The notes under the pieces are model-generated. The model searched no databases. It saw nothing but the letters and a program-made list of their open reading frames with translations, and had not been told where the DNA came from. Both the position numbers and the translations under genes were made by a program. From positions 1-34,286 of the IMG/VR virus record IMGVR_UViG_3300021067_000014: a stretch of 34,286 bases of DNA. The stretch is one strand, 5' to 3'. Source of the stretch: a virus. Positions 12,011-34,286 of the stretch are shown here, piece by piece (position 1 is the stretch's first letter; each line of letters opens with the position of its first letter).

Positions 12011-13360
12011 ATGTTTAAATGGATTATCGCTTTTATCCTCATTATCGCGGGTTGTGAAAGACTCGTTACTAACAATGTAGAAGTAACTAAAGAAGTTCCC
12101 GTAAAAAAGCTTCAGGACTTCCCATGGGCTGAACAAGAGGTCATGGAGCATATCGCTCTTTGTGGAGTTGGGGTTGTAGAAGGCCAAGAGGGCCCTAACA
12201 AGTGCAGCTACCATATCAAGGTAGACGATCTCATGTATCAACACCCTTCCCTAAAAACGGGTCTTTTACATGATCCGGAATTTGCCTTTAAAGGGGCTAG
12301 TTTCTATGAGCCCGATGACATGAAAGAAGAGGATATTCCTGATTCTTTCGATTTAAGAGACCTCATGAAAAATGGAGTGCCTGATATCAGACAGCAGAAC
12401 TGTGGAGACTGCTGGGCCTGGGCTACTCATCATGGATTAGAGATTGTGAGAGCCGTTCACGATCAAAAAAATTTTGATCACAGTGTGCAGACCGTTCTTT
12501 CTTGCTCCAAACACGGAAGCTGTAACGGTGGGTATATGAGTGCCCCCGACTTCTTACTTAATCGCGGTCTTCCCTATGAGCCTGACTTCTCGTATCAGGG
12601 AAAGGATGCGAGATGTAAGTTTTCATCAGATGAATTAGCAAAAGGATGGGAAGGAAAGGTCATTTCCGCTCCCTATATCGGTAAAAGTAGCTGGCACTCT
12701 AGAGGGGCTCCCGAGAGAGAGGGAACTAAAGTAAAGGCCATGATGGAGGCGATGCTAAAGCTTAAGTCTCCTTTAGTCGTAACTGTGGCGGCCTATTCGT
12801 CCAGTGGTGGGGTGGTGGATAGCTGCTCTGCTATTAATAGCGGTGGAAATCACATGGTCGCTATTGTGGGTTGGGAGATGTGGAAAGGTAAAAGAGTCGC
12901 TCATGTGTGGAACTCCTGGGGTAAGTCGCACGGAGAAAATGGCGTTTCAAAAATTGTCTGGGAATGTGGAGACGGAAGACTGAATCGAGGTCTTGGAGTA
13001 GACGCCAGGGTCTATGAATATAAAGGGGTAAACCCGCCTGATCCCTGTGAGCTACCAGAAAACGTAATTGAGAAGCCAAAACACATGATGTTTTTGGGTA
13101 GTAGTGTGAAACTTGGAAGAGCTCCTAAGAAGGCTCAAACTTGTAAATGGATCCCGGCAGACGGAATAGATAATCCGAATAGCTGTGAGACCTATGCAAG
13201 TCCCAATAGATCGACTGAATATCATTTAGAAGCTTCCAATGCCTGTGGGAAAGTAAGCGGTATCTCTCAGGTGGATGTGTATGGACCCATGGGTAAGCTA
13301 GATGACTCTGTGCTGACCCCGTTTGGAATAATTAATCGCAATAAAAAGGAGAATAAATAA
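12011..13360 (+). CDS. Papain-family (C1A) cysteine protease, lipoprotein, with C-terminal Ig/PKD-like domain
   Basis: A 449-residue protease with all papain landmarks: Gln128 of the oxyanion hole and Cys134 in QQNCGDCWAW, the CNGGYMSAPDFLLNRGLPYE segment (171-190), His281 in GGNHMVAIVGW, and Asn301 in VWNSWG. The N-terminus (FILIIAGC, Cys15) is a lipobox, so the mature protein should be lipid-anchored outside the inner membrane. Residues 20-125 resemble a propeptide. Residues about 350-430 resemble a PKD/Ig-like beta domain (TCKWIPADGIDN, then TEYHLEASNACG). Papain-like enzymes are rare in phages. It may process envelope or virion proteins, act in lysis, or alter the surface of a lysogen; the sequence does not decide. 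Confidence 0.88.
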   Translation: MFKWIIAFILIIAGCERLVTNNVEVTKEVPVKKLQDFPWAEQEVMEHIALCGVGVVEGQEGPNKCSYHIKVDDLMYQHPSLKTGLLHDPEFAFKGASFYEPDDMKEEDIPDSFDLRDLMKNGVPDIRQQNCGDCWAWATHHGLEIVRAVHDQKNFDHSVQTVLSCSKHGSCNGGYMSAPDFLLNRGLPYEPDFSYQGKDARCKFSSDELAKGWEGKVISAPYIGKSSWHSRGAPEREGTKVKAMMEAMLKLKSPLVVTVAAYSSSGGVVDSCSAINSGGNHMVAIVGWEMWKGKRVAHVWNSWGKSHGENGVSKIVWECGDGRLNRGLGVDARVYEYKGVNPPDPCELPENVIEKPKHMMFLGSSVKLGRAPKKAQTCKWIPADGIDNPNSCETYASPNRSTEYHLEASNACGKVSGISQVDVYGPMGKLDDSVLTPFGIINRNKKENK

Positions 13361-18757: not shown

Positions 18758-19639
18758 ATGCCGAACAACCTTGCTAGAGAGCTGTCTACAGTCATGCCAC
18801 AGCCTCAGTCCGAGTTGTGTGATCGCTTTGTTCGAGAAGTCTTACTGGGAAAGGTCTGTTGGGGCGAGCGAACGAATCACTTCTTACAACTTTGTAACTA
18901 TTGGACCACTGCACAAAAAGTCATTGAAGAGCTAAACCTTCCTCCTAGTGAATGGTCCGATCATAGAAATCTCATCTACCAATACTTCAGAAAACGCCGT
19001 CTAAGCGTCTCCTATGCACAAAAGGTTATTCGGGTATTAAACCTATGGGGAAGATTCTATTCTAGGCGAACCAATACGTTTTACGAGGAGGTTCCAAAGC
19101 CCCGGGGCGAAGCTTCAGTGAAGATTCAAGAGGCTTATTTTGAGAAGCGTCCTCATGGGCTAGTTTCTAAGGCGTTGAGCTGGGAACAGCTAAAATCTGT
19201 TAAAGACAAGATGCTAATTGAAAACTGGAACTGGCTTTATTTGACTCTTTGGTTTGGACTTAGGCCCAGTGAGTTAAATAATCTTAAGTGGGGAATAGAA
19301 GAATACAAAGGAGTAATGGTACTAGCAGTGTTCCAACACAAACTTGTACGTATTCCTACCGATCAGAGATGGAAGTTCATACCCATACTTTTTGAGGAAC
19401 AAAGAGCCGCTATTGATATTTTGGTAACCAAGAACTACCGAGTGCCTTTGGTTAAAACGCTACGTCGTCATATTGGTCCTAGGGTGACTCTCCGTGCAGG
19501 AAGAAAGGGTTTTGTGGCCCTAATGTGGGAGCAAGGTAAATACCCAAAGGAAGTATCCTACAGGTGGCTTGGGCATAAGAGCGTTAGAACGACCAATAAC
19601 CACTACACACAAGGGATTCAGCAGGCGTGTGAGTTTTAA
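18758..19639 (+). CDS. Tyrosine recombinase / integrase
   Basis: A 293-residue recombinase. Residues 20-110 form an N-terminal SAM-like DNA-binding region. Catalytic residues visible: Arg169 (FGLRPSEL), Lys195 (HKLVRIP), Arg246 (VTLRAGRKG), His273 (WLGHKSVRTTNNHY) and nucleophile Tyr283. The His of the usual H-x-x-R box is Val243, an unusual replacement. The 3' end from codon 285 to the stop is part of a 28-bp sequence repeated at 20133-20160. It probably inserts the phage genome into the host chromosome; no excisionase is recognised, though several small basic proteins are candidates. Confidence 0.88.
   Translation: MPNNLARELSTVMPQPQSELCDRFVREVLLGKVCWGERTNHFLQLCNYWTTAQKVIEELNLPPSEWSDHRNLIYQYFRKRRLSVSYAQKVIRVLNLWGRFYSRRTNTFYEEVPKPRGEASVKIQEAYFEKRPHGLVSKALSWEQLKSVKDKMLIENWNWLYLTLWFGLRPSELNNLKWGIEEYKGVMVLAVFQHKLVRIPTDQRWKFIPILFEEQRAAIDILVTKNYRVPLVKTLRRHIGPRVTLRAGRKGFVALMWEQGKYPKEVSYRWLGHKSVRTTNNHYTQGIQQACEF
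19611..19638 (+). repeat. 28-bp direct repeat, copy 1 (3' end of integrase gene)
   Basis: Identical over 28 bases to 20133-20160. This copy codes the last residues of the integrase (QGIQQACEF) and most of its stop codon. Flanks differ (C before and A after here; A before and G after in copy 2). It could be the core of an attachment site or the scar of a cassette insertion. Confidence 0.9.
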
Positions 19640-19671
19640 ATAGGATTCGTATCGGCGGTATATTCGTGCTA

Positions 19672-20133
19672 ATGGCAGTTCCTATGACGCAAGAACAGGC
19701 GGAACTGGTTAAAACCCCGATTTTGAGAGTAAGAGCGCTCAGCGGAAGATGTAGATCGGCCCTAGCAAATATGGCCTGGGGCCTTGGTTTTGATGGGGTA
19801 CGGCTTCGCGGTAAGGAAATTTTGTTAGAAGATGTTTTGACTATGGGTGCTCATAAACTGCTCCAAGTTAAGGGCTTTGGACGGAAATCCCTTAAAGAGC
19901 TTCTGGGTTTCATAGAAAAAAATCGATTCAATTTGGCCCCTGGACCTGATGTTAATCTCGAAGAATCCCCCAAAAGAGGTACGAAGCCATATAAAAGAAA
20001 ATACCTCTGGATTCCCAACCAAGAGGTAAAGCGGTGGGAAAAACGCATGAATGGAAAAGGTTATACCCAGGTATTGGTTTATGCCATTGACGGAAAACTC
20101 ACGACTAAATATAAAAAACGCGGATCGTTCTAA
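19672..20133 (+). CDS. RNA polymerase alpha-CTD-like protein
   Basis: A 153-residue protein from the ATG at 19672. Residues 16-85 follow the bacterial alpha-subunit C-terminal domain: RVRALSGRCRSALANMAW resembles the S-x-R-x-x-N-x-L-x-x-A segment, then LEDVLTMGAHKLLQVKGFGRKSLKELLGFI gives the helix-hairpin-helix with G-F-G-R-K-S-L-x-E. In RNA polymerase this domain contacts UP-element DNA and activators. No alpha N-terminal domain is present. The C-terminal 70 residues are basic. TATATT (19659-19664) ends 7 bases before the ATG and no ribosome binding site is seen, so the message may be leaderless. The gene lies between two identical 28-bp repeats. It may redirect or inhibit host transcription; other HhH DNA-binding roles remain possible. 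Confidence 0.75.
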   Translation: MAVPMTQEQAELVKTPILRVRALSGRCRSALANMAWGLGFDGVRLRGKEILLEDVLTMGAHKLLQVKGFGRKSLKELLGFIEKNRFNLAPGPDVNLEESPKRGTKPYKRKYLWIPNQEVKRWEKRMNGKGYTQVLVYAIDGKLTTKYKKRGSF

Positions 20134-20160
20134 AGGGATTCAGCAGGCGTGTGAGTTTTA
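20133..20160 (+). repeat. 28-bp direct repeat, copy 2 (after the alpha-CTD-like gene)
   Basis: Exact copy of 19611-19638. It begins in the stop codon of the alpha-CTD-like gene and its last three bases (20158-20160) form the stop codon of a convergent minus-strand gene. Together the copies bracket a 522-base unit. Confidence 0.9.
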
Positions 20161-20334
20161 GCGTTTAGGCTTTTTCCCAAATACTTGCTTATGCACCTTG
20201 CGGGCTAGCTCGCCAAAGGTATGTTCAACGAATTTAATGTGCCTCAATAAAGCGGCTTTCTTGCCCTTTAAATGAGGTACGAACTGTAGGCTATATTCTA
20301 TTTGTTTCTCGAGTTTAGTCTTTTTATTTGCCAA
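20158..20334 (-). CDS. Small very basic protein
   Basis: A 58-residue ORF starting at a TTG (20334) that overlaps the end of the upstream lipoprotein gene by 11 bases. Composition is strongly basic (Lys, Arg, His), with a helical middle (KAALLRHIKFVEHTFGELARKVHKQ). No ATG is available and no clear ribosome binding site, so it may rely on coupled translation. Its stop codon is supplied by copy 2 of the 28-bp repeat, which means the repeat boundary sets the C-terminus. Function unknown. Confidence 0.45.
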   Translation of the reverse strand: MANKKTKLEKQIEYSLQFVPHLKGKKAALLRHIKFVEHTFGELARKVHKQVFGKKPKR

Positions 20335-20542
20335 GCGGTTTCTTCACATCTGGATCTACATATGCCGGAATAAAGCACAGCGGATCTGCAGTCTTGCCCC
20401 CGGCAACCGAGTTCGCCTTGCAATAAAGTAATCTAGTATCCGTTGTCCAAACCCATGCTTCTTGTTTGTCGGACAGCATCACTGCTGTTTGAGTGCACGA
20501 AACTAATAAAGACACTGATGCTGCCAAAAGAACGTTTCTCAT
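20324..20542 (-). CDS. Small lipoprotein
   Basis: A 72-residue protein with a short signal (MRNVLLAASVSLLVSC) ending in a lipobox Cys16, so it should be lipid-anchored in the envelope. The mature part has two further Cys (about 41 and 56), perhaps a disulfide, and a Pro-rich C-terminus. An AAGGGGAG site precedes the ATG. It could be an o-spanin (Rz1-like) by size and anchor, but it is far from the lysis genes and not strongly Pro-rich; a superinfection-exclusion lipoprotein is the other common possibility. Confidence 0.7.
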   Translation of the reverse strand: MRNVLLAASVSLLVSCTQTAVMLSDKQEAWVWTTDTRLLYCKANSVAGGKTADPLCFIPAYVDPDVKKPLGK

Positions 20543-20552
20543 GAGCTCCCCT

Positions 20553-20909
20553 TTAATTATCCGCCAGGATGTATTTATCGCCTCTTTTTAGAATCTCTCC
20601 GCGCTTTTTGAGCCCCGAGAGCTCGATATGGACCCTGCTGGACAACGGGGTCTTCCCTACTACCGTAAACCCGGAGTCTTTTAGCTTTTCCACGAGTTTC
20701 ACAGAGGTAAGGCCGCTAGGGTACGATTTAAGCATGCTTCTAATGGCTTCCCGCAGGCCAGTCCCTTCAATCGCAGGTTTGGCTGATTTAGGTGGAACTT
20801 CAGCTTCAATTTTCTCTGCTCCGTCCAGGATGGTCTCGTAGGCGGATACGAGTTTTCTAGCCGCTTCCAGTTTGGCCTTTATTTCTGAGTAGAATGAGTC
20901 GGGTTTCAT
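20553..20909 (-). CDS. Winged-helix-type DNA-binding protein
   Basis: A 118-residue protein. Residues 1-35 are a coiled-coil-like helix (SEIKAKLEAARKLVSAYETIL). Residues 48-116 look like a winged helix: GLREAIRSMLKSYPSGLTSVKLVEKLKDSG as helices 1-3 and the wing SGLKKRGEILKRGDKYIL. The format (N-terminal dimer helix plus wHTH) suits a small regulator. It starts at an ATG overlapping the upstream stop by 4 bases. It could regulate the divergent early genes or lysogeny, but no target site is evident. Confidence 0.65.
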   Translation of the reverse strand: MKPDSFYSEIKAKLEAARKLVSAYETILDGAEKIEAEVPPKSAKPAIEGTGLREAIRSMLKSYPSGLTSVKLVEKLKDSGFTVVGKTPLSSRVHIELSGLKKRGEILKRGDKYILADN

Positions 20910-21211
20910 GGCTGCCTCTCTGTGGTATCGTTCTTAATAACCTTTAACTGGGGGCCCGATGTGCGATTGTCCTTGTCATTACTACTCTCAAGATCAGCTA
21001 GAGACTCTAGCAGCAAGGCTAGCCGCGTATTTGGAATATTGTCGGGAGACAGGCAAGATAGGGCTGTGGAGTAGGTCGATTCGAGAGCACTACGGTATAC
21101 CTCCCAGGAGCCAAGATGCTTCTCTCTGTCCCTCTGAAAAAGAACCAGAAGTCCAGCCATAGTAAACTGCTCGAAATCTTCGAGCCATTTGAGTAATTCC
21201 TTGTTGTCCAA
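20906..21211 (-). CDS. Small protein of unknown function, overlapped by an antisense ORF
   Basis: From the TTG at 21211 (GGGGGG site 5 bases upstream) it has 101 residues; a GTG at 21310 would add 33. Helical pattern LLKWLEDFEQFTMAGLLVLFQRD, then a polar C-terminus. It ends in a 4-base ATGA overlap with the winged-helix gene, which supports its reality. A 15-codon ORF (21213-21260) stops one base before the TTG, suggesting coupled translation. The + strand ORF 20959-21162, with similarity to the portal protein, lies entirely inside it, so one of the two may not be expressed. Confidence 0.5.
   Translation of the reverse strand: MDNKELLKWLEDFEQFTMAGLLVLFQRDREKHLGSWEVYRSALESTYSTALSCLSPDNIPNTRLALLLESLADLESSNDKDNRTSGPQLKVIKNDTTERQP
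20959..21162 (+). CDS. Portal N-terminus mimic, small protein
   Basis: A 67-residue ORF with a GGGGG site 4 bases before its ATG. Residues 7-47 align without gaps to residues 14-54 of this phage's portal protein with 17 of 41 identities, including YYS, Y-x-x-YC, TGK/SGK-x-G-x-W, RS-x-R and YGI. The DNA differs mostly at synonymous positions in the shared motif, which points to selection on the protein. The N-terminus adds C-x-C-x3-... Cys residues (MCDCPCHYYS). It lies antisense inside the minus gene 20906-21211. It might bind the portal's partner or the portal ring itself; expression is unproven. Confidence 0.5.
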   Translation: MCDCPCHYYSQDQLETLAARLAAYLEYCRETGKIGLWSRSIREHYGIPPRSQDASLCPSEKEPEVQP

Positions 21212-21212
21212 T

Positions 21213-21260
21213 TTATCCCCCCTGTTGAGAGGGTCTGACGACGGGGTAGCTGCGAGACAT
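21213..21260 (-). CDS. 15-codon leader peptide (putative)
   Basis: ATG at 21260 preceded by CAAAGGAACTACC; reads MSRSYPVVRPSQQGG and stops one base before the TTG of the minus gene 20906-21211. The RBS and first five codons (M-x-R-S-Y) mirror those of the divergent plus-strand ORF at 21404. A coupling or attenuation leader is plausible. Confidence 0.35.
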   Translation of the reverse strand: MSRSYPVVRPSQQGG

Positions 21261-21263
21261 TGG

Positions 21264-21400
21264 GGTAGTTCCTTTGCTATCTCACCCGCTCCTACTCTCT
21301 GCGGAACCACCTTAAAGATGTCTTGACAGATTTAGAAGCCAGTTCGAAAGTTGCCTCATCGATTCTCTTCGCAGGAGAATCGATAAACAAAGGAACTACC
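21264..21400. repeat. 13-bp inverted repeat pair in a divergent control region
   Basis: GGTAGTTCCTTTG (21264-21276) and CAAAGGAACTACC (21388-21400) are perfect inverse copies. Read outward, each is the ribosome binding region of a small ORF starting M-x-R-S-Y. The 111 bases between contain the perfect hairpin 21358-21384. I could not find a convincing promoter in either direction. Confidence 0.75.
21358..21384. other. Perfect 10-bp hairpin
   Basis: ATCGATTCTC (21358-21367) and GAGAATCGAT (21375-21384) with loop TTCGCAG. No T-run follows, so it is not a normal terminator; it may be an operator or an RNA structure in the leader of the plus-strand genes. Confidence 0.75.
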
Positions 21401-21403
21401 GAA

Positions 21404-21601
21404 ATGCCCAGAAGTTACTTTAGAATAACCCGCCTAATCAAACCCTTTCTTTTTCTTTCTTCTTTCATTCGCCTGAAGACACTGTGTCTTAGGCGGTTAA
21501 ATAGCTGGGGAGGGACTAGAACCTCTAGACCAAGCCTACCGTTTTTAGTTCAGCTTGCTTTTTATCAAGACGATCGCTCCGTCAGGGAGGGTCGATGGTA
21601 A
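21404..21601 (+). CDS. Small basic/hydrophobic ORF
   Basis: From the ATG at 21404 (AAAGGA site 9 bases upstream) it gives 65 residues: MPRSYFRITRLIKPFLFLSS, then Arg-rich and Ser/Thr-rich segments. The hydrophobic part (residues 11-23) is short. A strong hairpin (21470-21495) lies inside it and may be RNA structure rather than coding. Its end overlaps the next ATG by 7 bases. The start resembles the divergent 15-codon leader. Reality as a protein is uncertain; a structured leader transcript is the alternative. Confidence 0.35.
   Translation: MPRSYFRITRLIKPFLFLSSFIRLKTLCLRRLNSWGGTRTSRPSLPFLVQLAFYQDDRSVREGRW
21470..21495 (+). other. Strong hairpin (CGCCT/AGGCG with AAGACA/TGTCTT)
   Basis: CGCCT, one bulged G, AAGACA, a CTG loop, TGTCTT and AGGCG make an 11-bp stem. 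It is followed by GTTAAATAG and not by a T-run. Together with the hairpin at 21358-21384 and the region from 21784 onward it marks this part as RNA-structure-rich. Confidence 0.65.
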
Positions 21602-21774
21602 GAGAATCCTTCATTCTACAAAAAGCGGCCAAGATTATCGCCGATAACAAAAAGAACACATTAAAAGCCGCCAAACAGATTTTTGATCTTCTAGAACAAA
21701 ACCGCTTACTCGATTGGAGCCGGCTCGATCCGGATTATCCCAAGAAAGAAAAAGGAGGTTCTAGAGGACGTTAA
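21595..21774 (+). CDS. Small helical protein of unknown function
   Basis: A 59-residue protein with a good CAGGGAGGG ribosome binding site before its ATG. The N-terminal 40 residues form a basic amphipathic helix (LQKAAKIIADNKKNTLKAAKQ, then IFDLLEQNRLLDW), and the tail is polar (KKEKGGSRGR). It lies between two structured stretches and at the head of the plus-strand early region. Small basic helical proteins here can be regulators or excisionases, but there is no motif to choose. Confidence 0.55.
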   Translation: MVRESFILQKAAKIIADNKKNTLKAAKQIFDLLEQNRLLDWSRLDPDYPKKEKGGSRGR

Positions 21775-21783
21775 TAGAGGGCA

Positions 21784-22152
21784 TGGGTGGTCCTAACCGC
21801 CCACAGTGATGGAGGCGTATAGCGCCCAAGAAGTCATGGACTCGTGAGGGTCTACCACGATTTGGTTCGTGTAAGCATAGCTTCAGTGAGCTGTTACTCA
21901 GCTGAAGCATTAGGTGTCCGAAGGTTGATAGGCCGACGGGTAGTGAACACTAGGAGAGCACCATCGATAAGCGACAGGGGCGCCTCGATGCTTGGGCCAC
22001 AGTACTGTGCCTGCGTCTACCTATGGAGAAGTTGTTTTTGTTGAAGTTGGGCTAACTCGAATCAGTAAGAGGGCTTACAGGTGTACTGGCTAGAGAATAC
22101 GGAATGGGGATTGGGGGGCATTCTTATGTCCTCAGGAATCCTGACCTCTGGG
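21784..22152 (+). ncRNA. Candidate structured noncoding RNA or structured DNA element
   Basis: About 370 bases with no convincing ORF and a chain of hairpins: TGGGTGG/CCGCCCA (21784-21803), GGCG/CGCC (21814-21826), TCGTG/CACGA (21842-21860), GCTTCAG-TGAG/CTCA-G-CTGAAGC (21880-21908), CATCGA/TCGATG with inner GCG/CGC (21962-21990), CACAG/CTGTG (21998-22009), GTAAG/CTTAC (22065-22078), TCAGG/CCTGA (22132-22144) and CTGGG/CCCGG (about 22148-22160). Composition is more G-rich than the flanking genes. It lies between short plus-strand genes. I do not recognise tmRNA, RNase P, 6S or intron cores. Phages are known to carry large ornate RNAs (GOLLD, ROOL); membership cannot be judged by eye. A replication origin is the other option. 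Strand is inferred from the neighbours. Confidence 0.5.
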
Positions 22153-22164
22153 TAGCCCGGGTTT

Positions 22165-22341
22165 ATGAGCAGTAAAGAAGGCAGAAGTGAGAAGCAGACT
22201 AATGAAAGTACAAAAGAAAGGCTGTGTAAGGTTTGTAAAGCAAGACTCAGATCATCCATCGGTCCTTACAGAGAGAAGTACTGGAAAAGCAGACTTTGTA
22301 GGTTCCATTTCCACAGAAGGCCAAAAACGGAGGATAGATGA
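22165..22341 (+). CDS. Small Cys/His protein, zinc-finger-like
   Basis: A 58-residue protein from the ATG at 22165. It has CKVCKARLRSSIGPYREKYW followed by LCRFHFHRR, i.e. C-x2-C and C-x2-H-x-H pairs that could bind one zinc ion, in a strongly basic context. Its stop overlaps the next ATG (ATGA), supporting this frame over the longer overlapping frame starting at 22187. Possibly a DNA-binding early protein. No clear ribosome binding site; the end of the structured region lies directly upstream. Confidence 0.6.
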   Translation: MSSKEGRSEKQTNESTKERLCKVCKARLRSSIGPYREKYWKSRLCRFHFHRRPKTEDR

Positions 22342-22526
22342 CAAAGCTAAAACTCTTAAAAGGCCTATTAGAGATGAAGATCCAAGCGATTCTTTATGTT
22401 GGACGGGAGGACGGAATGTTAACCCCTGAGCAACACCAGAGATGGAAGATTTACAAAGACTTACTAGAGGTTATTGAGACTATAGAGGACATCGAGGATC
22501 TTAACGGACACGATAAGGCGGCATAG
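22338..22526 (+). CDS. Small helical protein of unknown function
   Basis: A 62-residue protein starting in an ATGA overlap with the zinc-finger-like gene. The N-terminal half is hydrophobic-basic (LKLLKGLLEMKIQAILYVG); then PEQHQRWKIYKDLLEVIETIEDIEDL forms an acidic helix. The gene ends 1 base before an AGGAGG ribosome binding site for the next. No family recognised. Confidence 0.55.
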   Translation: MTKLKLLKGLLEMKIQAILYVGREDGMLTPEQHQRWKIYKDLLEVIETIEDIEDLNGHDKAA

Positions 22527-22539
22527 GAGGTATGAATGA

Positions 22540-22908
22540 ATGCCATATAAGGATAAAGACAAACAAAGAGCAGCGCAGTTGGCCTATTATTATCGCCGAA
22601 AGGAAGCCTGTAACCGAAGGCAGAAGGAATGGAGAGAAAAAAATAAAGAACGCAAGCTGGAATATGACAGGGAATATGCCAAGACTCACAGAGATATACG
22701 CAACAGAATTTCCCGAGCATATGAAGCCAGAAACCCCGGAAGAAAAATTCGATCACATATTCGATGTCGATATGGGACGGAATGGTTAGAGGCTGTATTA
22801 GCCCTACAAAAGCTAGAGGAGGAAATACGTGGACGCAAAAAAGAAACTAACAGCAACGAATCTAAAGGAGGAGCTTTGGAAGGCTCTAATGGATCTACAG
22901 AAAGGTAA
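22540..22908 (+). CDS. Basic phage protein, MPYKDKDKQRAAQ-type start
   Basis: A 122-residue, very basic helical protein. The opening MPYKDKDKQRAAQLAYYYRRKEA is a recurrent N-terminal pattern of phage proteins that often precede HNH-like or DNA-binding domains; here 35-75 is an Arg/Lys/Glu-rich helix (RREWREKNKERKLEYDREYA-like) and no HNH residues follow. An AGGAGG site lies 7-12 bases upstream. Its last 27 codons overlap the next gene in another frame and look low-complexity, so the C-terminus is probably constrained by that gene. Nucleic-acid binding is a fair guess. Confidence 0.6.
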   Translation: MPYKDKDKQRAAQLAYYYRRKEACNRRQKEWREKNKERKLEYDREYAKTHRDIRNRISRAYEARNPGRKIRSHIRCRYGTEWLEAVLALQKLEEEIRGRKKETNSNESKGGALEGSNGSTER

Positions 22909-27592: not shown

Positions 27593-27842
27593 GTTATTCC
27601 CATTAGCGATAGCCCTTTTACTGGCAAAGCTCCTGCTCACAGTGGACCTATCCACCCAGGAGTGTGTGCTCTATGTGGTAACGATCCTAGGCTTTGTGGC
27701 TATTTTTGCGATCAGGGAATTCATAAAGGCAAAGCAGCTCTATAAGGCAGAGATAGATGAGCTCAAAGAGGATATGCAGGAGCTTAAAAATCAAATGAAC
27801 GCATTCCAATTACGGTATGGCTTTGAAGGCCGAATCCCTTAA
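27534..27842 (+). CDS. Two-TM membrane protein, holin-like
   Basis: A 102-residue protein with two hydrophobic helices (about 22-37, LFPLAIALLLAKLLLT; about 44-61, VLYVVTILGFVAIFAI) and a charged C-terminal coiled coil (KAEIDELKEDMQELKNQ). Two TMs with a short loop and a charged tail are the layout of a class II holin. It lies directly before the large terminase, overlapping it by 26 bases, and far from the endolysin. If it is the holin, the small TM protein at 9906 may be an antiholin or spanin. Confidence 0.6.
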   Translation: MEDSLKNSGVITQLASNTAKLFPLAIALLLAKLLLTVDLSTQECVLYVVTILGFVAIFAIREFIKAKQLYKAEIDELKEDMQELKNQMNAFQLRYGFEGRIP

Positions 27843-29241
27843 TAGTGATCTCATAGAACAGGAACTCTTTAGAAGAGGCGTTCTAACCTATAAACTGCAT
27901 GCAGGGCAGTTAGTTATTGAACAATCTTTTAATCAATTAAACGGAAAGTTATTCGTAGCTGACTGCTCAAGACAACTTGGAAAGTCCACTTGGGCAGCCT
28001 GTAAGGCTATTGAAACCGCTATTCGTATTCCTAACTGTAGAATCAGAGTAGCGACTGCTTTTTTAACTGACTTAGAGCAGTTCATTATGCCGGCTTTTGA
28101 GTTTGCTCTAGATAACTGTCCACAGGATATTGAGCCTAGGTTTTATGCTCAGAAGAAGGAATATTACTTTCCCAATGGTTCTAAGATCCGCTTGGTGGGC
28201 TTGGATCGTAAGCCTAATGGTTTGCGTGGAAACCGTCTGGATCTCGTCATTTTGGATGAAGCTGGATACATCTCTCGTTTGGATTATCTTTACGGCTCTG
28301 TGCTTATCCCTGCTACTACTCATACTCCACATGCCAGAATAATCATGCTTTCCACACAACCTGCGTCTCCAGATCATGAATTTATTGTGTTTTGTGACAG
28401 AGCTGAAGCGGAAGGGGGCTATGTTAAACTGGATATATTCAAAAATCCGCTTCTTAATAAAGAACAGATTGATAAGCTTGCAGAAGAATGTGGGGGATAT
28501 GAATCAACCGCTTTCAGAAGAGAGTATCTATGCGAACGCGTTGTGGAGGAAGGTCGAGCTATCATCCCGGAGTTTAGAGAAAGACATCATGTCGCTCCTA
28601 CGGTCATTGGACCGTATCACCACTTCTGGCATAAGATCGAAAGCCTCGACTCGGGCGTTCGTGATCAGACGGCTTGCTTATTTGGATACTATGATTTCCT
28701 TAATGCAAAACTCGTTATCGAACATGAGTTCTATCTCCAGGGAGATAAAGTTACTACAAAAGCCATCGCCCAAAAGGTCACCCAAGTTGAAAGTGAACTT
28801 GGATGGACAAGTGTTTATCGACGAGTAGCCGATAACGATAACCTCATTCTAGTGCAAGACCTAGACAGTGAGTTTAATCTCAGTTTTTACCCTACCAATA
28901 AGGATGAATTACACGCCATGGTCAACAAAGTGCGTCTATGGATGCAAGCCGGGCGTATTCAGATACATCCTAGATGCACACACTTAATCGGGAACTTAAA
29001 GTCTGGTATCTGGGATAAGAATAAGAAACAGTTCGATAGGTCTAGGACTTATGGGCATTTTGATGCACTAAGTGCACTTGTTTACATGGTTAGAAATGTC
29101 CCTGATAATGATAACCCGGTTCCTGTTGGATATGGCATGCCGATGAGTGATACACTTATTATCACTAAGCCTAATCAAGTTAGCGATACCGCATTAGAGA
29201 TTCAAAGGGGGTTTAATAATGCTTGGGGTGGACAGACTTAA
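27817..29241 (+). CDS. Terminase large subunit
   Basis: A 474-residue packaging motor. ATPase: Walker A variant SRQLGKST (51-58), Walker B LVILDE (143-148) and the coupling motif LSTQP (179-183). Nuclease: Asp278 (SLDSGVRDQT), the DND triplet at about 339-341 and HFDALSALVY (Asp416), the acidic residues expected of the RNase H-like fold. It cuts concatemers and pumps DNA into the procapsid through the portal. It overlaps the holin-like gene by 26 bases and the portal gene by 23. Size and motif spacing are normal for phages with a headful or similar mechanism. Confidence 0.93.
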   Translation: MALKAESLNSDLIEQELFRRGVLTYKLHAGQLVIEQSFNQLNGKLFVADCSRQLGKSTWAACKAIETAIRIPNCRIRVATAFLTDLEQFIMPAFEFALDNCPQDIEPRFYAQKKEYYFPNGSKIRLVGLDRKPNGLRGNRLDLVILDEAGYISRLDYLYGSVLIPATTHTPHARIIMLSTQPASPDHEFIVFCDRAEAEGGYVKLDIFKNPLLNKEQIDKLAEECGGYESTAFRREYLCERVVEEGRAIIPEFRERHHVAPTVIGPYHHFWHKIESLDSGVRDQTACLFGYYDFLNAKLVIEHEFYLQGDKVTTKAIAQKVTQVESELGWTSVYRRVADNDNLILVQDLDSEFNLSFYPTNKDELHAMVNKVRLWMQAGRIQIHPRCTHLIGNLKSGIWDKNKKQFDRSRTYGHFDALSALVYMVRNVPDNDNPVPVGYGMPMSDTLIITKPNQVSDTALEIQRGFNNAWGGQT

Positions 29242-31282
29242 GTACTTTGCTGCTGAAGATTACTACTCCGACGCATTTTTAAACGCAGTCTTAGACAAAA
29301 TTCAAAAATACAGAGATTACTGCAATCAGTCAGGAAAGACTGGTAAATGGTTTAGAAGTTTAAGAAACTATTACGGCATTTCTTCAGATGGCAATAAGTC
29401 ATCTAACCTTACTACTCGGGGCGGGGAGAGTGGACAGCTTCTTCTTGGAAAAGTTGCGGATTACCGTAACCTTATCCAACACCAACTGATTCTCATTACA
29501 TCCCAGCGACCTGCTGGTGAAGCAAAGGCAATCAATTCAGACCCCGCATCTCTCCATCAAGCTCGTATCGGCTCTTCTTTAGTCGAGTACTATCTCTCTC
29601 AAGCGGGTTGGGAAGCTAAGTTTGTTCGTGGACAAGAGTTTGCTCAAGTCGTCGATGAAGGCTTCTATGTTCTAGACTGGGATGCCACAGCTGGAGATCC
29701 CGTTCGACCTAAAGTAGATGAAATGGGCATGCCAACGGGTGAAATGATCATGTCTGGGGATGCGATATTACGAGTAGTGCCACCTTGGTACATGGCTCGC
29801 GATGTTTATATGGATAGCCCAGACAGCATGAAATGGGGTATTTTTAACTACAGAGTAAATAAATTTGATTTAGCAGCTAAGTTTCCCAATCACCGAGATG
29901 AAATACTTAACACCCAAGACTCAAAACGAATCTCAGACTATCTCTTTAACCTGTATAGGGACGGAGATACAGACATGGTTACGGTCTTTTGTCTGTGTCA
30001 CGATAAGACCCCAAGTGTCCCAGAAGGCAGATACACGCTGTTTATTCCCGATGCTGTCTTAATGGACGGCCCCCTTCCCTACGCAGAATTTAATATCTAT
30101 AGAAACGCTCAAAACGACATTATCGGAACAGGCTTTGGCTACACGAATAATAATGATTTACTTCAGCTAGAAGAATGCACCGACGCTATTCATAGCGCTA
30201 TTATGACCAATCAAGTCACCTTTGGAGTGCAAGGGATTATTGCGCCTAAAGGCTCTGGCTTAAGTTATCAACAGCTTGGTAAAGGATTGCCCTTCTTTGA
30301 AGTAGACCCAGTACATGTGGATAAGATTCGTCCATTGGAACTCGTGCGCACGGCTCCTGAGCTTTTTAATTATCAGCAGACCATCAGAAGCTTTAAAAGA
30401 AACATCGCAGGCATTGATTCAGTCACTGCAGGAGACCCAGAAGGGGCGTTAAAGTCTAACTCGGGAAGCGCATTAGCGCTCATTCAGTCCCAAAGTTTAA
30501 GATTTAACAGTGGTGCACAAAGAGCTTATTACAACTCTCTTTCAAAGGTCTGCACAGGCCTTATTAAGCTACTTCAACGCTACGCGGATAGTGAACGCGT
30601 CATCCAGGTCACTGGAAAAGTACAAGCTCAGTACCTAAACGAGTTTAAATACTCCAAAGACGATCTAACCAATGTGTCTAGTGTCGTATTCCACATGGTC
30701 GACCCAGTGTCTAAGACCCCTGGAGGAGCTCTAGCCTTTGCTCAAGACCTACTTAATCAGGGCATGATCAAAGACCCGAAACAGTACATTACGGTTGCGA
30801 GAACTGGCTCTTTGGATGTGTTTACAGAGGATGATGAGGACGATCAGACAGCAATCAAAGAAGAAAATGCGAATCTTCGAGACGGTAAGCCAGTTCAAGT
30901 TGTTGCCACAGAGAATCACAAGAACCATATAGCGAGCCACAGTAGCGTAATCGCATCCCCTGCAAGTAAAGATAATTTTGAACTAGTTCAAGCCACCTCA
31001 GATCATATTCAGCAGCATATTGATATGTGGTTGGAATTATCAATGAGTAACCCAGCACTTCTTATCGCCACAGGACAAGATGTGCTCCCTGTTGCACAAA
31101 TGGGGATGATGACAGCACCGCCACCACCCCCAGATCAATCCATATCTTCGGGTACGAATGAAAACGACAATAACATGGCACGTGCGTTGGGTCCAGAAAC
31201 ACCCATCGAAACAAAAGCCGAAACAGTTAAGCAACCACTTAGTCCCGTGAATCCACTAACTGGACAGCGCGTGGCGCTATAA
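29219..31282 (+). CDS. Portal protein
   Basis: A 687-residue protein of podovirus portal size (P22 gp1 has about 725). Start ATG 29219 with GGGGG at 29207-29211. Helical N-terminus with YRDYCNQSGKTGKW, RSLRNYYGIS (31-56), a wing/stem region with many Trp, Tyr and Asp, and the C-terminal helical part (SQSLRFNSGAQRAYYNSLSK, about 420-440). It forms the ring at one capsid vertex through which DNA passes and binds the terminase and adaptor. Residues 14-54 are closely matched by the small ORF at 20959-21162. The C-terminal 60 residues are Pro- and Gln-rich and probably disordered. Confidence 0.88.
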   Translation: MLGVDRLKYFAAEDYYSDAFLNAVLDKIQKYRDYCNQSGKTGKWFRSLRNYYGISSDGNKSSNLTTRGGESGQLLLGKVADYRNLIQHQLILITSQRPAGEAKAINSDPASLHQARIGSSLVEYYLSQAGWEAKFVRGQEFAQVVDEGFYVLDWDATAGDPVRPKVDEMGMPTGEMIMSGDAILRVVPPWYMARDVYMDSPDSMKWGIFNYRVNKFDLAAKFPNHRDEILNTQDSKRISDYLFNLYRDGDTDMVTVFCLCHDKTPSVPEGRYTLFIPDAVLMDGPLPYAEFNIYRNAQNDIIGTGFGYTNNNDLLQLEECTDAIHSAIMTNQVTFGVQGIIAPKGSGLSYQQLGKGLPFFEVDPVHVDKIRPLELVRTAPELFNYQQTIRSFKRNIAGIDSVTAGDPEGALKSNSGSALALIQSQSLRFNSGAQRAYYNSLSKVCTGLIKLLQRYADSERVIQVTGKVQAQYLNEFKYSKDDLTNVSSVVFHMVDPVSKTPGGALAFAQDLLNQGMIKDPKQYITVARTGSLDVFTEDDEDDQTAIKEENANLRDGKPVQVVATENHKNHIASHSSVIASPASKDNFELVQATSDHIQQHIDMWLELSMSNPALLIATGQDVLPVAQMGMMTAPPPPPDQSISSGTNENDNNMARALGPETPIETKAETVKQPLSPVNPLTGQRVAL

Positions 31283-33742: not shown

Positions 33743-34240
33743 ATGCCACAACTATCATTTAACAGTTTGGATCCTAGAAACTCGCTTCGTATGTTTGGTT
33801 GGGTTGGGGAGAATGTTCTTGCGAGCAATCTTCTTAGGACTCAGCTGAATTTTGTAGATTTTACGTTAAGCGCTGCTCAAATGAATACTCTGAATGCCAC
33901 CCCTGTAACGCTTTTAGCGGCTCCAGGTGCTGGACTCATGAACATTGTCGAGTATGTCGTCACGTTCATTGATGCCGGAGCTACTGCATTTGAACTGGGT
34001 GCTGGGGTTCTTAGTTTCTTATACACAGACGGCAGTGGGGACAAGGTTGCAACCGATGTTCCTAACGCCACTGTGGAGAGTGCTACAGACGTTTACTACC
34101 GTTCGGTAGGCCTGGCTGTAGCCCCTCTCGTTAATGCTCTTATCTGTGCAAAAACTTCGACGGATGTCACCGCTGGGGATGGCACAGTCTATGGACGCAT
34201 TGCTTATAGAACTATTACGGTTGCCGATTTGCTTCTGTAA
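33743..34240 (+). CDS. Head decoration / capsid-associated protein
   Basis: A 165-residue protein from the ATG at 33743, chosen because AAGGAG lies upstream and the earlier TTG at 33701 is inside the terminator. The segment VTLLAAPGAGLMNIVEYVVTFID (48-70) and SFLYTDGSG match a pattern common in phage jelly-roll-like proteins near coat genes (A-A-P-G-A-G, a strand, then D-x-x-A). The end is strand-rich (YGRIAYRTITVADL). It probably decorates or stabilises the head. It is followed by a terminator at the window end. Confidence 0.6.
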   Translation: MPQLSFNSLDPRNSLRMFGWVGENVLASNLLRTQLNFVDFTLSAAQMNTLNATPVTLLAAPGAGLMNIVEYVVTFIDAGATAFELGAGVLSFLYTDGSGDKVATDVPNATVESATDVYYRSVGLAVAPLVNALICAKTSTDVTAGDGTVYGRIAYRTITVADLLL

Positions 34241-34248
34241 TTAGCGAG

Positions 34249-34286
34249 GGGGAGAGATACCCTCATTTCTCTCCCCTTTGCTTTAA
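34249..34286 (+). terminator. Rho-independent terminator at the right edge
   Basis: GGGGAGAGA (34249-34257) pairs with TCTCTCCCC (34268-34276), 9 bp, loop of 10 bases, followed by TTTGCTTTAA. It closes the head-decoration transcript just before the window ends. In a circular genome it lies between that gene and the adaptor gene at the left edge. Confidence 0.8.

Follow-up and report, generated by a model that had tools for sequence, protein, structure and literature searches.

The window analyzed here, a 34,286-nucleotide stretch of an IMG/VR virus record taken at its full length, carries head, packaging, tail and lysis genes together with accessory genes and a tyrosine integrase (18758–19639). 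A small open reading frame (ORF) lies in the accessory, lysogeny-associated region outside the head operon, 1.3 kb beyond the integrase stop codon and 8 kb from the portal gene, with minus-strand genes to its left (Table 1). The sole close relative phage that we found, IMG/VR record 3300030410_000098 (L003), has a portal, terminase and capsid that are 56%, 60% and 74% identical to those of the window, and is without the small ORF, the integrase or the minus-strand cassette; the stretch that holds the small ORF is an accessory insertion between the recombinase and the late genes that is absent from L003. A more distant relative is a Silvanigrella phage (portal 25% identical), whose host suggests that the host of the window phage belongs to the same broad bacterial group as Silvanigrella. 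The window record is open at both ends (1–917 and 34240–34286). Its first gene is about 96 N-terminal residues short compared with L003, and the L003 genes between a head gene and this first gene (a 792-aa tail-fibre-like gene and an 87-aa gene) are missing from the window, so about 3 kb may be absent.

Table 1 Coordinates of the small ORF, its neighbours and the portal region within the window.
Feature	Coordinates	Strand	Remarks
58-aa ORF	20158..20334	-	Basic
72-aa ORF	20324..20542	-	Lipoprotein-like signal (by eye)
118-aa gene	20553..20909	-	Possible winged-helix DNA-binding protein (by eye); no family match
101-aa ORF antisense to the small ORF	20906..21211	-	TTG start; AGGGGGG ribosome site, -10.2 kcal/mol; gene-like codon score
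Possible ribosome site of the small ORF	20944..20958	+	GGGGG, 4 nt before ATG; anti-SD duplex -8.4 kcal/mol
Small ORF	20959..21162	+	67 aa, ATG start; homologous to portal N-terminus
Palindromic hairpin	21169..21185	.	Perfect, 7 bp, loop of 3
Large terminase	27817..29241	+	Terminase_6N E 1.2e-7, phrog_2 E 5.9e-25; overlaps portal start
Portal protein	29219..31282	+	687 aa; SU10_portal Pfam E 9e-5 (below family cut-off), phrog_156 portal E 5e-5
Portal segment homologous to the small ORF	29258..29380	+	Portal residues 14-54; pairwise and six-frame matches

Ranked by strength among random sites, the possible ribosome site of the small ORF falls between the 1% and 5% points, and it is at least as strong as those of 71% of the reference genes, so that the ORF has the start codon and ribosome site expected of a functional gene. 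No promoter-like site was found adjoining it. The palindrome, which starts 7 nt past the stop codon and is followed by no run of T, may act as a weak 3' hairpin, serve as an operator or have arisen by chance. Five cysteines are encoded (residues 2, 4, 6, 28 and 57); the protein opens with MCDCPCH (20959–20979), three cysteines and a histidine in seven residues that are absent from the portal, and a metal site there is conceivable.

A minus-strand gene had been named across the same DNA, and the 101-aa ORF is indeed present. It shares an ATGA overlap with the adjoining 118-aa gene, and its ribosome site is stronger than that of the small ORF. Its codon score ranks at the 7th percentile among real genes and exceeds that of 93–99% of shadow frames; judged on synonymous codons alone, it does not stand out from shadow frames, 36% of which score as high. 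When the plus protein is recoded synonymously, the minus register is open by chance in 16% of cases; the true portals of the window and L003 have this antisense register closed. Both frames, the small ORF and its antisense ORF, may be used.

The surroundings hold several further elements. A perfect 28-nt direct repeat occurs at 19611–19638 and again 522 nt further on at 20133–20160. The first copy makes up the end of the tyrosine integrase, stop codon included; the second sits at the stop codon of a 155-aa gene, in which an RNA polymerase alpha C-terminal-like motif scored under the cut-off (PF03118, E 0.0015). The arrangement resembles a cassette flanked by duplicated attachment sites at the integrase 3' end. 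An imperfect 31-nt inverted repeat (77%; 21246–21276 and 21388–21418, 111 nt between arms) lies in the divergent region between the minus-strand cassette and the plus-strand early genes and is a possible regulatory site. Between the late genes and the accessory region is a gene recognized by eye as a C1-type (papain-like) cysteine protease (12011–13360), with a counterpart 33% identical in L003 (205–978, minus strand).

In the virus head, the portal serves as the gateway for DNA. Residues 7–47 of the small protein align without gaps to portal residues 14–54 with 17 of 41 identical, exactly as the original prediction had it, and the codon differences it quoted (CGA/AGA, TCG/AGT and GGT/GGC) can be seen in the sequence; the two genes use different synonymous codons for 12 of the 17 identical residues. 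BLASTP gave 43.9 bits (E 4e-11) for this pair. The Smith-Waterman score of 101 compares with a mean of 27.4, a standard deviation of 3.6 and a maximum of 49 among 300 shuffles of the small protein, corresponding to a Gumbel P of about 2e-12. A six-frame search of the whole record recovered the same match (E 2.1e-9), and when all window ORFs of at least 40 aa were compared with one another no second strong internal match emerged: this pair has E 1.3e-9, and those ranked after it (7e-4 and 3e-3) are between ORFs of no standing. Since the shuffles and the window-wide comparison both set the pair apart, the likeness reflects homology and not chance.

The homology is confined to this segment. When the whole portal was searched by tblastn against 19600–22600 in any frame, no continuation past residue 54 was found; the portal sequence just after residue 54 is a more conserved stretch that is absent downstream of the small ORF, and residues 1–7 and 48–67 of the small protein bear no convincing likeness to the portal. 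The small ORF is linked to portals by its N-terminal homology, and at 67 aa and with no family match it has nothing of the portal core (wing, stem and clip; PF23899/phrog_156).

In the L003 portal the N-terminal segment is retained as Y-x2-Y-C-x3-G-K-x3-W-x-R-x4-[YH]-Y-G, and the Silvanigrella phage portal keeps the W-x-R-x4-Y-Y core. The suggestion that the segment was a former fusion partner added to the portal is thus disfavored: it aligns throughout with the N-terminus of the L003 portal and in part with that of the Silvanigrella phage, and this conservation, together with the hairpin predicted for it, marks it as the first structural element of the portal and not a fused domain. No second copy of the segment outside the portal was found in the L003 record. 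At the 24 sites where the window and L003 portals differ, the small ORF has the window residue at 8 and the L003 residue at 1; it most likely branched off the lineage of the window phage itself once that lineage and L003 had separated.

Relatives of the small ORF were not found by single-sequence scans of IMG/VR, which likewise returned none for the antisense ORF or the 118-aa gene, nor did tblastn against phages and plasmids reveal a relative of the small or the antisense ORF; with the portal as query it returned only the Silvanigrella phage and two weaker records. Portal and terminase profiles, the sole queries used for GTDB, were run against IMG/VR and GTDB genomes and identified the L003 record only, and no prophage; as these scans used few peptide patterns, absence from them is not strong evidence. 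A degenerate pattern of the hairpin, scanned against all of IMG/VR, matched the L003 portal and one other contig (L008); the latter was judged spurious, with stops upstream in its translation and no other likeness. The fear that the motif is a generic short domain of many unrelated proteins is not borne out, as there was no notable Pfam, PHROG or PDB match and the pattern scan returned only portals of this phage group besides the one spurious frame. The nearest PDB profile match (E 0.027), to the hypothetical hydrolase 3sgg, was put down to chance. Because the segment is present in the L003 portal and has no other convincing match in the pattern scan, we regard the likeness as homology and not a generic motif. 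We conclude from these alignments that the small ORF is a true but much-diverged homologue of the portal N-terminus. A brief search of open-access full text on portal fragments, paralogues and duplications found only a recombinant truncated portal, and we know of no described counterpart to this arrangement.

The codons record in which frame the divergence took place. Identities between the small ORF and the portal at codon positions 1, 2 and 3 number 19, 28 and 12 of 41 (NG86 dN 0.62, dS saturated); since second positions are best conserved and third positions saturated, most of the divergence happened while the plus frame was coding. The plus-strand second positions are the wobble (third) positions of the antisense ORF, so selection on the minus strand cannot explain their conservation; by the same token, the antisense ORF is argued to have arisen later than the plus frame. 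Descent of the small ORF from the portal N-terminus at the protein level and in the plus frame is thus supported. The original prediction had gone further, placing both copies under protein-level selection; the part that stands is selection on the plus frame over most of the divergence, whereas current selection on both does not follow, because a recently captured portal fragment would give the same pattern. The codon usage of the small ORF itself is shadow-like and not that of the phage, with a codon score of -0.10. All 47 reference genes and 99.8% of true 67-codon segments score higher, and on synonymous codons alone the ORF ranks at the 1.2 percentile.

An AF2 model of the small protein, built on a shallow alignment, predicts a helix hairpin (residues 11–31 and 34–45) with a mean pLDDT above 90 over residues 11–40, and the end of the homologous stretch coincides with the end of this hairpin. 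Foldseek of the hairpin in BFVD returned nothing below E 4.5. The corresponding model of the portal, from two sequences, had a mean pLDDT of 32 and was too poor for placing the hairpin.

We tentatively read the small ORF as a portal hairpin that has been exapted to mimic the portal N-terminus or to compete with it, a proposal that we believe nearly as readily as we doubt. As a stand-alone descendant of the portal N-terminus, from the phage's own lineage or a close relative, that now resides in the accessory, integrase-side region, the ORF would be translated as a small protein that keeps the N-terminal helix hairpin, with the rest of the subunit gone. By mimicry it might replace the portal N-terminus at its docking site, whether on the neighbouring portal subunit, the scaffold or the capsid, and so lower or block portal ring formation, most usefully in a related superinfecting phage. 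The homology, the coding history of the plus frame and the 8-to-1 lineage agreement argue for this proposal, as do the homologous stretch that stops where the predicted hairpin does and the intactness of the unit, which has an ATG, a GGGGG site, a stop soon after the hairpin-coding part and a 3' palindrome. It is weakened by the poor codon scores, by the confinement of the ORF to this one genome among those searched, by the credible antisense gene and by the want of an adjoining promoter-like site.

The same codon scores and lack of relatives in the collections searched are what would be expected if a piece of a related phage's portal had been captured in the accessory region by illegitimate recombination and had been functionless since, which may quite possibly be the case even if we incline somewhat against it. 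Its divergence from the resident portal would then measure the difference between two phages and not time spent as a small gene; portal N-termini of the window and L003 differ at about half of their residues, which makes a donor at 43% identity plausible, and the insertion is missing from L003. The fragment, however, is bounded just where a single structural unit begins and ends, no trace is left of the conserved sequence that adjoins this segment in the portal, and the fragment has its own ATG and a ribosome site matched by only a few percent of random sites. Since a random fragment would rarely comprise one structural unit together with a start, a ribosome site and a nearby stop, the exapted hairpin is slightly favored over such a relic.

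It is improbable, in our judgment, that the working gene is instead the antisense ORF, as first gene of the minus-strand cassette, overprinted on a captured portal fragment with the plus ORF untranslated. Its strong AGGGGGG site, its ATGA coupling to the 118-aa gene, its gene-like codon score and the closure of its register in the true portals speak for this arrangement, but the register can be open by chance, the synonymous codons are not distinctive, no relative was found, and the conservation of plus second positions means that it cannot predate the plus-strand history. A chance likeness, or a generic short motif of unrelated proteins, has next to no prospect of being correct: the segment is short (41 aa), but the shuffle and window-wide statistics, its conservation at the same place in the L003 portal and the lack of a match to any other family contradict it.

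Extending the exapted-hairpin proposal, this could be a temperate phage with a dedicated micro-portal: the N-terminal hairpin as a free protein, encoded on the strand opposite another small gene, which poisons assembly of the portal rings of related superinfecting phages or times the phage's own head assembly, although we consider this full picture unlikely. If the protein is translated and binds the portal, it would be a phage-encoded fragment of the phage's own DNA gateway acting as an assembly inhibitor, and the portal N-terminus would be a handle for blocking head assembly; if the ORF is a relic, it is the ordinary kind of trace left when related phages recombine.

Compared with SU10 and P22-like portals (PF23899, PHROG 156), the homologous segment is the start of the window portal, whose central part matches these families weakly, whereas the small ORF would correspond to the first helix hairpin only, without wing, stem, clip or crown. 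To our knowledge, the interference proteins of satellites and prophages target the major capsid, scaffold or terminase, and none has been recognized as a portal fragment; in this they differ from the small ORF. The candidate would nevertheless resemble them as a small accessory-region protein that acts on the structural proteins of a competitor, as in the interference with another phage's head assembly or packaging by the capsid redirection and packaging-interference proteins of PICI and the capsid remodelling protein of PLE (PMC10945586, PMC12409344). With the antisense overlapping genes of bacteria and phages (PMC9927249, PMC7457138), the locus, both frames of which are sequence-based predictions, shares two open frames on opposite strands, each with a ribosome site.
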